Below, one piece after another: positions 38,577 through 45,693 of a DNA stretch of 48,899 nt; position 1 is the stretch's first letter; each line of letters opens with the position of its first letter. The DNA lies in contig CALYRG010000006.1 of assembly GCA_945482615.1 (NCBI GenBank), positions 1 through 48,899 on the forward strand, in the 5' to 3' direction. The stretch is from an uncultured Clostridia bacterium (GTDB lineage: Bacteria > Bacillota > Clostridia > Oscillospirales > Oscillospiraceae). Under the pieces are notes generated by a model. That model was not told where the DNA came from. It saw only the letters and a program-made list of their open reading frames with translations, and ran no database searches. The position numbers and the translations under genes were made by a program.

Positions 38577-38645
38577 TTAACGTTCGCTGGGACCGCCTGC
38601 ATCTTTGTCAAAGATCAGGTCATCCAGATCCATAATGGGTTCCAT
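38577..38645 (-). CDS. Candidate small ORF, 22 aa: MEPIMDLDDLIFDKDAGGPSER
   Basis: SD AAGGAG 7 nt before ATG; TAA stop immediately before the terminator at 38540-38574. Shorter than the ORF-track cutoff. Confidence 0.45.
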   Translation of the reverse strand: MEPIMDLDDLIFDKDAGGPSER

Positions 38646-38687: not shown

Positions 38688-39062
38688 ATGGGACGCGCGA
38701 AATTGCGTGAAACAGGGAAGGGAAAAATACAATATGCTTACGATCAGTACCGCTACGATATGGGCGATCAGTGGAAAGACACAGACCGGCTATTCATCGC
38801 TGAGTGCGGCGCACAGATCTACCCCGGCACTGTGTACATATGGGTGCATAAGGTGTGTGACGCGGCAGGGCTGCCTCATAGAACGGTGCATTCTCTGCGA
38901 CATACCAACATCACCATGCAGATCGCAGCAGGCGTACCGCTGGTCACAGTGGCCGGTAGAGCAGGCCACGCGAGAATCAGCACCACAACAGATATCTACA
39001 GCCACTTCCTAAAGAGCTCCGATAAAATGGCAGCAGAAAAGCTGGAGCAGCTATTCGAATAA
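38688..39062 (+). pseudogene. 5'-truncated tyrosine recombinase/integrase (C-terminal catalytic part only)
   Basis: C-terminal box HSLRHTNITMQIAAGVPLVTVAGRAGHARISTTTDIYSHFLKSSDKMAAEKLEQLF; first catalytic Arg region and N-terminal domains absent. Confidence 0.85.
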
Positions 39063-39073
39063 CACAACACAAA

Positions 39074-39108
39074 GGGCGATGGCCATAGCGGCCATCGCCC
39101 GATTTTTT
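39074..39108 (+). terminator. Strong hairpin terminator after the integrase remnant
   Basis: GGGCGATGGCC-atagc-GGCCATCGCCC followed by gaTTTTTT. Confidence 0.8.
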
Positions 39109-39823
39109 AGTCTGTTGCCATAATCGCGAGCTCAGCGATAAAGTATACTAACAGCTCATACACACTTTTGGCTTCCTCGTCAGAGTAGTCCATCATACCA
39201 CGATGGAGAATGTTGTTTCTAAATGGGATGCGCTTATCAATTGGGTTTGCATAGCTATCAGTATTGGAAAAGACGGTAAATACAATGCCGGCAATCAAAA
39301 CCTTTTTATAGCTGTCCATATCCATGTCATGAGTGTCCTGCGCTGACTGTAAAGCTACTCTTTTGATTTTATCCTTTGACTGACGTTCATGAGCCATAGC
39401 TTGATAAACCAATTCTTCGAAATGAGCTAACAGAACGATTGTCTTTTCGCGATGACTCAATTGCGAGGATTCAACAACAGAGAGGGCATAGGCATCCAAC
39501 GGTGTGGACTCAGTCTTTTTCCTGACGGCATCTACAGCCATGTCATATGTCATGTAGCCAAAGCTCTCCTGAAGCCACTCCACGTCAGCATAGGTGATCT
39601 CAGCCTTTTCGAAACCGGAGATACGTTGGAACAATTCGGTTTCCTGAATGTCCGTTGGAATACTCTGAAAGAATTTGACAAGATTAGCAAATGTGTCAGA
39701 GGCGGCAAATCTTGTCATGGCCTCGTTAATCGACAGTACCATGTTGCCGATTTTTTCAGAGAGCGAAAGTAGGTTGGCAATATGCTCGTTCTTAAAGAAC
39801 CAATGTTCATGCTGATCGGCCAT
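39107..39823 (-). CDS. Uncharacterised protein with C-terminal HEPN-like R-x4-H motif
   Basis: Strong SD (TTTAAGGAGGTAAATCAAATG). Start placed at MADQHEHWFF, because the track GTG start at 39901 lies inside the tRNA gene. C-terminus RIPFRNNILHRGMMDYSDEEAKSVYELLVYFIAEL. Confidence 0.65.
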   Translation of the reverse strand: MADQHEHWFFKNEHIANLLSLSEKIGNMVLSINEAMTRFAASDTFANLVKFFQSIPTDIQETELFQRISGFEKAEITYADVEWLQESFGYMTYDMAVDAVRKKTESTPLDAYALSVVESSQLSHREKTIVLLAHFEELVYQAMAHERQSKDKIKRVALQSAQDTHDMDMDSYKKVLIAGIVFTVFSNTDSYANPIDKRIPFRNNILHRGMMDYSDEEAKSVYELLVYFIAELAIMATD

Positions 39824-39895
39824 TTGATTTACCTCCTTAAAATTGTTTGACTTATGATAGAAATAGCCGCAGAACACACTGGTTTTGCGGCTTTT

Positions 39896-39972
39896 TGGCA
39901 CGCCCGGCGCGATTCGAACGCGCGACCTTTCGCTTAGGAGGCGAACGCTCTATCCTGCTGAGCTACGGGCGC
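39896..39972 (-). tRNA. tRNA-Arg (anticodon CCU)
   Basis: GCGCCCGTAGCTCAGCAGGATAGAGCGTTCGCCTCCTAAGCGAAAGGTCGCGCGTTCGAATCGCGCCGGGCGTGCCA folds as a cloverleaf; CCA encoded. Confidence 0.95.
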
Positions 39973-40000
39973 ATATTATGAAATTTAGGTAAATTGGGCT

Positions 40001-40145
40001 TTGAAGGCATATCCCTTACATTTTCCCGAAAAGGCACCAAAGGGTACCGAACAGGGTGCCAAATCTCCGAAAGCGTTGACACAAGGTCGCGAAATCGGCG
40101 TTTTCCTCGCGTTTTCTCGCTTTCCTGCGGGTATCACACGGATAG
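40001..40145 (+). pseudogene. Possible remnant of an integrase 3' end/attP arm
   Basis: Lys/Gly/Pro-rich tail-like reading (GTEQGAKSPKALTQG, alternative-frame KGTKGYRTGCQIS) ending at a tRNA anticodon-loop core, with no intact gene. Confidence 0.35.
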
Positions 40146-40152
40146 AGCAAGA

Positions 40153-40193
40153 CCTTAGGAGGCGTACGCTCTATCCAGGTGAGCTACGGGGGC
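40153..40193 (-). pseudogene. Partial tRNA-Arg(CCU) 5' half truncated at the anticodon loop
   Basis: Reverse strand GCCCCCGTAGCTCACCTGGATAGAGCGTACGCCTCCTAAG closely matches the 5' half of the tRNA-Arg at 39972, then diverges; no 3' half found nearby. Confidence 0.75.
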
Positions 40194-40257
40194 AGGCAGG
40201 ATGTATTGTACTCTCTTTTGAGGGCAATGTCAAGAACAACATACTACCCGGCGATAT

Positions 40258-42557: not shown

Positions 42558-43691
42558 ATGATTATGAATATTGAATTTGATGCGTACAAGCAGAAACTGA
42601 ACGATTGCCGTCCGGCACTGGAAGGCCTGGCGGATTCCCTGAATGTGGAATCCCTTCGCAACGACCTGGAGCGCTACCATGCCATGCAGGAGGCTCCCGG
42701 GTTCTGGGATGACCCGGATAAGAGCCAGAAAATCGTAGTCAAGGCCAGGCAGACGGAGGCCAAGATCGAGCGGTATGAAAAGATGCTCTCCAACTGGGAC
42801 GACCTGATGACCATCTGCGAAATGGCTCAGGAGGAAGACGACGATTCCATGCTGGACGAGCTGAAGGAGGGCTTTGCGGTTCTCACCCAGGAGATGGAGA
42901 GCTGCCGTCTGGAGACCCTGCTCACCGGCCACTATGACAGGAACAACGCTATGATGAGCTTCCATGCCGGTGCCGGCGGTACCGAGGCCCAGGACTGGTG
43001 CCAGATGCTCTACCGGATGTACACCCGCTGGGCAGAGCGCCACGGCTTCACCTATAAAATCATGGACTATCTGGAGGGGGACGAGGCTGGCCTCAAGTCC
43101 GCCGATATCATGATCGAGGGGGAAAACGCCTACGGTTTCCTGAAGGGCGAGAACGGTGTCCACCGTCTGGTGCGTGTGTCCCCCTTTGATGCCAACGCCC
43201 GGCGGCAGACCTCCTTCGCCGCCATCGAGGTCATTCCCGATATTGAGGATGACAGTCAGGATGTGGAGATCCGCCCCGAGGACTATGAGATGCAGGTTTA
43301 CCGCTCCTCCGGTGCCGGCGGCCAGCATATCAACAAGACTTCCTCTGCCGTCCGTCTGATCCACAAGGCCACCGGAATTGTGGTGTCCTGCCAGACCGAG
43401 CGGAGCCAGTTCCAGAATAAGGAGACCTGTCTGCGGATGCTGCGCAGCAAGCTGGTGGAGATTAAGGAGCGGGAGCACCTGGACAAAATCTCCGATATCA
43501 AGGGCGTGCAGCAGAAGATCGAGTGGGGCAGCCAGATCCGCAACTATGTGTTCATGCCCTACACGCTGGTGAAGGACACCCGTACCGGCTGTGAGACCTC
43601 CAATGTCAACGGCGTTATGGACGGCGCGCTGGATCCCTTTATTGAAAGCTATCTCAACTGTCTGGCCACCGGCAACTGGGTTCAGAAGTAA
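42558..43691 (+). CDS. prfB: Peptide chain release factor 2
   Basis: SPF RVSPFDANARRQTSFAAIEV; GGQ RSSGAGGQHINKTSSAVRL; continuous N-terminus without the programmed frameshift stop. Confidence 0.95.
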   Translation: MIMNIEFDAYKQKLNDCRPALEGLADSLNVESLRNDLERYHAMQEAPGFWDDPDKSQKIVVKARQTEAKIERYEKMLSNWDDLMTICEMAQEEDDDSMLDELKEGFAVLTQEMESCRLETLLTGHYDRNNAMMSFHAGAGGTEAQDWCQMLYRMYTRWAERHGFTYKIMDYLEGDEAGLKSADIMIEGENAYGFLKGENGVHRLVRVSPFDANARRQTSFAAIEVIPDIEDDSQDVEIRPEDYEMQVYRSSGAGGQHINKTSSAVRLIHKATGIVVSCQTERSQFQNKETCLRMLRSKLVEIKEREHLDKISDIKGVQQKIEWGSQIRNYVFMPYTLVKDTRTGCETSNVNGVMDGALDPFIESYLNCLATGNWVQK

Positions 43692-43857
43692 GAACTGCCT
43701 GATTCCCGGGCAGGATGCTTCCTGGCGATACCGAAGGAATTGTTAAAAAAAGCTTGCTTTTTTGAATGCCCCATGATATAATGCATGGGCTATTATGAGG
43801 CCAATGGGCGATGATCATTGGCATTCCGCGAAAAAATGCGGAGGGAGGTTACAAGCA

Positions 43858-44090
43858 TGGGTGTTTTTGAAGTGATTCTGATTGCTCTGGAGACGATCTG
43901 CTCTCTGGCTCTGATCGGTGTGATCCTGCTGCAGAACAGCAAGGAGGAGGGCCTGGGTGCTCTGGCCGGCTCCAGCGACACATATCTGGGCAGAAACAAG
44001 AACGGCGGCAAGGAGCAGAAGCTCGCCTCCGCGACCAAGTGGATTGCTATCGTCTGGGTCATCCTGACTCTGGCGCTGAGCCTGTTCTAA
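43858..44090 (+). CDS. secG: Preprotein translocase subunit SecG
   Basis: Two TM segments; LLQNSKEEGLGALAGSSDTYLGRNKNGGKEQKL; TTGCTT-17-TATAAT promoter upstream. Confidence 0.9.
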
Positions 44091-44100
44091 ACCCAAATGG

Positions 44101-44129
44101 AAGCCGCACCCGCAAGGGTGCGGCTTTTG
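44101..44129 (+). terminator. Rho-independent terminator after secG
   Basis: GCCGCACCC-gcaa-GGGTGCGGC-TTTT. Confidence 0.9.
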
Positions 44130-44250
44130 CTATGCCGGGAAGACCAGCGAACTCCACGGAAAAACTTGCCCCATTGCTTGAATATGGGTTGATTTGTTCA
44201 CATTTCCATGGTAGTATGTGTTTATACTGTTAATCTAAGGAAGTGCAGCT

Positions 44251-45693
44251 ATGGAAAGCAAGCGTCTTGCCGGGCTGGAGCCCCGGAAGGTTTTTGAATA
44301 CTTTGAAGAGATTTGTTCCATTCCCCACGGTTCCCGGAACACCCGGCAGATTTCTGACTACCTGGTGCGGTTTGCGGCGGAGCATGGTATCCGCTGTATC
44401 CAGGACGAGGCGGACAATGTGATCCTGTTTGCCCCCGGAACCCAGGGGATGGAAGACCATCCCCCGGTGATTCTGCAGGGCCACATGGATATGGTCTGCG
44501 AAAAGGATTCCGGCTGTGCCATTGATATGGCAGTCCAGGGCCTGGACGTGACCCATGACGGAAAATTCGTTTTTGCCCGGGGCACAACCCTGGGCGGAGA
44601 TGACGGCATCGCCGTTGCCTTTGCGCTGGCAATTCTGGCGGATAGCTCCATTGCCCATCCTCCGCTGGAGGTCATTGTGACCACCGATGAGGAAATCGGC
44701 CTGCTGGGTGCCGCTGCCATCGATCTGAGCCAGATACAAGGCCGGAAGCTCATCAATCTGGACTCTGAGGACGAGGGCATCTTTACCGTGTCCTGCGCAG
44801 GCGGCGCTACGGCGACGATTTGCGTGCCGGTAGAGCGCCGTGCCGTATATGGCCCCTGTATCCGTCTGAATGTTGACAATCTTCAGGGCGGCCATTCCGG
44901 CGCGGAGATCCACAAGAACCGGGCCAATGCCAACAAGGTCATGGGCGAGTTTCTGAGCCGGATCCAGAGACTGATGCCTCTGTGCCTGACATCTCTGACC
45001 GGAGGCAGCAAGGACAACGCCATTCCCCATTCCTGCACCGCAAATGCAGTGGCTATGGGCATCGGTCTGGAGCGGATCAATACCATTGCGGAGGAGGTGC
45101 AGGCCTGGGTCCGGGAGACCTATGACGAGCCTGCGGCCACCGTGCAGGCCTATGATGTAGATGCTCTGGGCGGCAACGCCTTGACCACGGAGTCCACCGC
45201 CCAGGTCATCGCCCTGCTGTGCGCACTGCCCAATGGGGTGCAGGCCTGGAGTAAGGACATGGAGGGCCTGGTGCAGACCAGCCTGAACCTGGGCATTGCC
45301 AAGCTGGGCGACCGCTTGACCGCAACCTGCTCCGTCCGCAGCAGCGTCAATGCGGAGAAGGAAGATCTGCTGGAGCAGCTCAAGGGCATTGCCGGTATGT
45401 TCCAGGGCAGCTTCACGGTCGCCGGGGAATACCCCGCTTGGGAGTACCGCAAGGACTCCACCCTTCGGGACACCATGGTGGAGGTCTACACCCGGATGTT
45501 TGAAAAGGAACCTCAGGTGCTGGCCATTCACGCAGGTCTTGAGTGCGGCCTGTTCAGCCAGAAGGTGGAGGGCCTGGACTGTGTCAGCATTGGGCCCCAG
45601 ATGCAGGATATTCACACCAGTCGGGAGAAGCTGGACATCGCTTCCGTGGAGCGCACCTGGCGCTTCCTGCTGGAAGTGCTCAAGGCGCTGTAG
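44251..45693 (+). CDS. pepD: Aminoacyl-histidine dipeptidase / beta-Ala-His dipeptidase (M20 family)
   Basis: VILQGHMDMVCEKD; TLGGDDGIAVAFALAIL; TTDEEIGLLGAAAID; GGHSGAEIHKNRANANK; HAGLECGLF. Confidence 0.92.
   Translation: MESKRLAGLEPRKVFEYFEEICSIPHGSRNTRQISDYLVRFAAEHGIRCIQDEADNVILFAPGTQGMEDHPPVILQGHMDMVCEKDSGCAIDMAVQGLDVTHDGKFVFARGTTLGGDDGIAVAFALAILADSSIAHPPLEVIVTTDEEIGLLGAAAIDLSQIQGRKLINLDSEDEGIFTVSCAGGATATICVPVERRAVYGPCIRLNVDNLQGGHSGAEIHKNRANANKVMGEFLSRIQRLMPLCLTSLTGGSKDNAIPHSCTANAVAMGIGLERINTIAEEVQAWVRETYDEPAATVQAYDVDALGGNALTTESTAQVIALLCALPNGVQAWSKDMEGLVQTSLNLGIAKLGDRLTATCSVRSSVNAEKEDLLEQLKGIAGMFQGSFTVAGEYPAWEYRKDSTLRDTMVEVYTRMFEKEPQVLAIHAGLECGLFSQKVEGLDCVSIGPQMQDIHTSREKLDIASVERTWRFLLEVLKAL

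Follow-up and report, generated by a model that had tools for sequence, protein, structure and literature searches.

An uncultured Clostridia bacterium of the family Oscillospiraceae carries, within the 48,899-nucleotide stretch of contig CALYRG010000006.1 analysed here (the window), a protein-coding gene placed between a tRNA-Arg(CCU) gene and the remains of an integrase gene. The locus raises the question of how these three came to stand together and of what the encoded protein does. The original prediction, made from the DNA letters, was that the protein may be a HEPN-type RNase and cargo of a mobile element at a tRNA integration site. Here we consider the element, its tRNA and its cargo in turn.

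The integration site and the replacement tRNA

The cargo ORF lies at 39107-39823 on the minus strand (ATG at 39823, 238 aa) behind a Shine-Dalgarno sequence, AAGGAGG. Its GC content is 43.4% vs 57.7% for the window. A tRNA-Arg(CCT) gene was detected on that strand at 39896-39972 (ARAGORN; Rfam tRNA, 67 bits), 72 bp ahead of the ATG, so the ORF does stand directly downstream of this gene. On its other side, the cargo ORF converges with an integrase remnant, an ORF of 124 aa at 38688-39062 (plus strand; Pfam Phage_integrase, 1e-9) of which ~109 aa, encoded at 38733-39062, match the C-terminus of a full-length tyrosine integrase. A terminator-like hairpin, found on both strands, separates the two convergent genes (39074-39100).

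A second copy of this arrangement was found in a Clostridia metagenome-assembled genome (MAG) from water buffalo (locus L002, genome G1045), where the order tRNA, cargo and integrase is the same. DNA homology between the window and L002 extends from 40165 to 38739 at 89% identity and stops at CCTCCTAAGG, a core located in the anticodon loop of the host's tRNA-Arg(CCU) gene, which is broken there. Identity differed among the parts: 91.5% in the left-end leader (189 bp, 39973-40161), 98.7% in the tRNA-Arg(CCU), 85.9% in the cargo gene and 90.3% in the integrase gene (93% at the protein level, against residues 356-464 of the L002 integrase). The core CCTCCTAAGG forms attL at 40153-40163 (minus strand), and the 5' part of the broken host tRNA gene leads up to it at 40162-40193 (minus strand). 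This part, at the upstream limit of the homology, is host-specific, with 62.5% identity between the two host copies. The leader, also on the minus strand, contains GGCACC/GGTACC/GGTGCC repeats; triplets of the GGCACC/GGTGCC type occur in both element ends and look like integrase arm sites.

The opposite junction was located in the L002 genome on a second contig (G1045:C5:8438), where the element end is followed by CTCCTAAGG, which holds the same core, and then by the 3' half of the tRNA gene. When the two flanks were rejoined in silico, ARAGORN reported tRNA-Arg(cct), whereas neither attL nor attR of this genome gave a tRNA; the window has attL only. In L002 the two element ends come from different contigs of the same MAG, and it is somewhat uncertain whether they belong together; the chief reason to pair them is that their tRNA halves are complementary. 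Because neither junction rebuilds it, the host tRNA-Arg(CCU) gene would be destroyed upon integration. The intact tRNA-Arg(CCU) beside the cargo gene is accordingly to be read as the element's and not the host's, since its two copies share 98.7% identity, against only 62.5% for the 5' halves of the host genes. The original prediction had thus recognized a real tRNA gene beside the cargo but had overlooked that it is the element's replacement for the broken host gene.

It is highly likely, from these comparisons, that an integrative element destroys the host tRNA-Arg(CCU) gene by inserting in its anticodon loop, replaces it with a tRNA-Arg(CCU) of its own located immediately within the left end of the element, and carries the cargo gene along. 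The earlier claim of cargo at a tRNA integration site was borne out in this respect by the window/L002 homology, the att core and the conserved gene order, and the claim that mobile-element remnants flank the ORF by the integrase fragment. A second tRNA-Arg(CCU) gene was not found by an ARAGORN-checked pattern search of assemblies G000 and G1045, both of which are incomplete (completeness of the window genome, 71%); AGG might also be read by a different arginine tRNA. IMG/VR held no exact match to the element tRNA or to the left-end sequence, and a match to the left end was likewise not found in 370 further genomes from the class. Relatives of the integrase at 30-34% identity are often neighbours of other tRNA genes, in short loci without the tRNA-cargo-integrase layout.

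The sister element and the relic in the window

The L002 element retains a complete integrase (464 aa, Phage_integrase) and also carries a D5 primase/helicase with phage relatives. Its cargo further includes a DUF2971 protein (PADLOC PDC-S31) and a NUDIX protein (PDC-S07), both of which are candidate defence genes, an SRA-like fragment, and HsdR, a kinase, HsdS, HsdM, AbiEii and AbiEi. The L002 element is thus a defence island with a type I restriction-modification system and AbiE. No structural phage gene was found in the ~17 kb of this element that could be seen, the middle of the element being missing.

At its right end, a defence block at L032:1-7547 reads HsdR, kinase, HsdS, HsdM, AbiEii and AbiEi, the kinase gene being located inside the type I restriction-modification operon. 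Two small proteins encoded near the integrase (L002:12229-12579, minus strand) and near attR (L032:7919-8143, minus strand), respectively, are paralogous (60% identity over 62 aa) and possibly act as an excisionase or regulator.

In the window, the integrase gene is cut at ~38733. The 3' half of the host tRNA was not found in the window genome, and a search for the right end of the element, which had no positive control, also gave nothing. All that survives of the element in the window is a decayed left end in which the cargo gene is still open, and the tRNA and the cargo gene were probably retained as a relic because the tRNA is needed.

The surroundings of the broken tRNA gene were also compared with other genomes. 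A 22-aa ORF, MEPIMDLDDLIFDKDAGGPSER, with a Shine-Dalgarno sequence is present at 38577-38645 (minus strand) of the window, and a similar small peptide is encoded beside a native tRNA-Arg(CCT) in a genome of the same genus (L012). In a genome of that genus (L034, G136), homologues of prfB and pepD directly follow the native tRNA-Arg(CCT); the window homologues of these genes are at 42558-45693, at least ~2.4 kb away from the broken tRNA. The orientation of the tRNA relative to the small ORF differs between L034 and the window, which hints at a rearrangement.

The cargo protein and the HEPN question

We searched for relatives of the cargo protein. A single one was obtained, the L002 protein, with 89% identity. 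No other homologue was found in ~1,290 whole genomes (family, order and phylum of the window genome and the order of L002, some genomes being counted twice), in a contig collection of 84,980 species, in IMG/VR, or among phages and plasmids; the contig-collection and IMG/VR scans are sensitive mainly to close relatives. Weak matches to residues 21-102 in 433-aa frames of other genomes (L004, L006 and L007) were attributed to chance, and the L004 and L006 frames read as an isocitrate dehydrogenase-like protein. Profile searches produced nothing beyond chance-level matches in Pfam, NCBIfam, PADLOC, PHROGs or the PDB sequences. In the window/L002 gene pair, dN was 0.049 and dS 0.83, and these values show that the cargo protein has been under purifying selection, at least during the active period of the element.

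The predicted C-terminal motif is present. The protein ends in ...RIPFRNNILHRGMMDYSDEEAKSVYELLVYFIAELAIMATD, and its sole R-x4-6-H is R202-N-N-I-L-H207 (RNNILH), which is followed by an amphipathic helix and preceded upstream by E146-x3-K150. The motif satisfies the HEPN R-x4-6-H pattern and carries a polar residue (N) after the arginine, as is usual in HEPN motifs (Anantharaman et al. 2013, PMC3710099). In shuffled versions of the protein (composition alone), R-x4-H occurred in 26%, R-x4-6-H in 60% and RN-x3-H in 1.1%. Because of these frequencies, the bare R-x4-H is weak evidence for HEPN, while the extended RN-x3-H is moderate evidence and suggestive at best. R202 and H207 are both retained in the L002 homologue, but this says little because that protein, the only one found, is 89% identical overall.

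Structure prediction with AlphaFold reached a pLDDT of 38.5 on the complete 238-aa chain and of 56.2 on residues 100-238. The low-confidence models are all helical and place the motif ahead of the last helix, as in HEPN domains, but with such pLDDT values they are too weak to confirm or refute a HEPN fold. Foldseek with the low-confidence model gave no significant match; unrelated helical proteins that the fold search returned were set aside, the query model being of low confidence. No HEPN profile in Pfam matched the cargo protein, nor could the protein be meaningfully aligned with one Apea HEPN protein.

The cargo protein thus resembles the HEPN RNases of defence and toxin-antitoxin systems (PMC3710099) in having R-N-x3-H near its C-terminus before an amphipathic helix, a helical character in the models and possibly an upstream E-x3-K. 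It differs from them in lacking a sequence or structure match to any HEPN family and in lacking an antitoxin or partner gene. As the original prediction had noted, no partner antitoxin is visible; at both loci, the cargo gene sits between the tRNA and the convergent integrase. Of the predicted HEPN RNase, the motif and its retention in the sole homologue stood, whereas a profile match was not obtained and the fold models were of low confidence. Tentatively, and as our best single guess, we regard the cargo as a stand-alone HEPN-type RNase in phage defence or element maintenance, a reading that draws on R-N-x3-H, the helical C-terminus and the company of defence genes in the sister element. A HEPN/Abi role is plausible, and this orphan protein is a candidate defence gene.

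It is also a serious possibility that, with the same element and the same replacement tRNA, the cargo is an unrelated helical protein, such as a regulator or maintenance protein, in which R-x4-H is coincidental. The frequency of the bare motif in shuffles and the lack of a HEPN profile or fold match agree with this, as does the conservation of the protein beside the integrase in both copies. On the other hand, the extended motif is rare by chance (1%), the low-confidence models are all helical and show the motif where HEPN domains have it, ahead of the final helix, and the other cargo of the sister element is defence-related.

A further reading joins the two neighbours functionally: the cargo would be a tRNA-directed nuclease and the element tRNA its protected partner, the two forming a pair for addiction or defence. 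Anticodon nucleases of the HEPN type are known, among them PrrC and RloC (PMC3710099), the two genes adjoin in both copies, and no protein antitoxin is seen. However, the tRNA is already explained by replacement of the broken host tRNA, and its anticodon loop is identical to that of native tRNA-Arg(CCU) genes, so we consider such a pair very improbable. The same low standing is given to its fullest form, in which a promoterless effector, a tRNA-directed HEPN RNase, would be switched on by the host tRNA promoter only after integration, with the element tRNA as the protected substitute.

Least probable of all is that the tRNA beside the cargo belongs to the host as one of two tandem genes, the other being degenerate, and that the element is merely a neighbour: host tRNA genes are common integration sites and this tRNA is intact and of a common type, but the reading is contradicted by a tRNA and leader that are near-identical in two hosts with differing flanks and tRNA 5' halves, by a homology that starts at the core within the broken tRNA, and by an attR with the complementary half.

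Expression of the cargo gene and relation to tRNA-dependent lysogeny

With the tRNA taken as the element's replacement and the cargo as a candidate HEPN RNase, we examined how the unit might be expressed. A promoter of the host tRNA-Arg gene, TTGACA-17-TACAAT, is present at 40205-40233 (minus strand), matches 11 of 12 consensus positions and is the same in L002. It is the only strong promoter upstream of the cargo gene in both hosts and the likely driver of the whole unit. No promoter match of at least 9/12 was found between it and the cargo gene, and none upstream of the cargo gene in the rebuilt attP. The original suggestion that the ORF has little space for a promoter of its own and may depend on the tRNA transcript is in line with this result, and the cargo gene is probably expressed from the tRNA promoter. 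The spacer between tRNA and cargo (39824-39895, minus strand) holds a hairpin (AGCCGC..GCGGCU) and the Shine-Dalgarno sequence, and the hairpin folds in both the window and L002 (z of -1.8 and -4.0, respectively). After integration, the host tRNA promoter would drive the replacement tRNA, and read-through of the hairpin would give low levels of the cargo protein; in the free circle, the cargo gene would be nearly silent. In the open-licence papers searched, no description of a tRNA-cargo unit under a captured promoter was found.

tRNA-dependent lysogeny, known from mycobacteriophages, has been established for actinobacteriophages including Fionnbharth and LeBron (Guerrero-Bustamante and Hatfull 2024, PMC10865867), and the authors of that study asked how far tRNA-dependent integration extends. 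The integration strategy described here, as far as sequence can place it, belongs with it. In both cases, attB lies inside a host tRNA gene and the core, here CCTCCTAAGG, is too short to rebuild the tRNA (the rejoining was shown for L002/G1045); an intact tRNA gene of that isotype, tRNA-Arg(CCT), is carried by the element in both copies; and the element encodes a tyrosine integrase (464 aa in L002, a C-terminal remnant in the window). Unlike the actinobacteriophages, this element resides in a Clostridia host, uses tRNA-Arg(CCU) and carries a D5 primase and defence genes, with no structural phage gene in the part seen; moreover, the tRNA and the protein gene behind it appear to use one captured host promoter. 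A hint of a Firmicutes precedent, cited in PMC10865867, comes from Lactobacillus johnsonii Lj965, which does not restore the tRNA and has a cognate tRNA gene of its own; it differs in being a prophage.

These results place the same tRNA-dependent logic in an element of Clostridia that carries defence genes and uses tRNA-Arg(CCU). The window would represent a domestication step, in which the element has decayed, its tRNA is the sole detected copy of the isotype, and what remains to the host is a tRNA of foreign origin together with its attached gene. The layout further suggests a simple rule for cargo, in that expression of a promoterless gene set behind the replacement tRNA would be confined to the integrated state.
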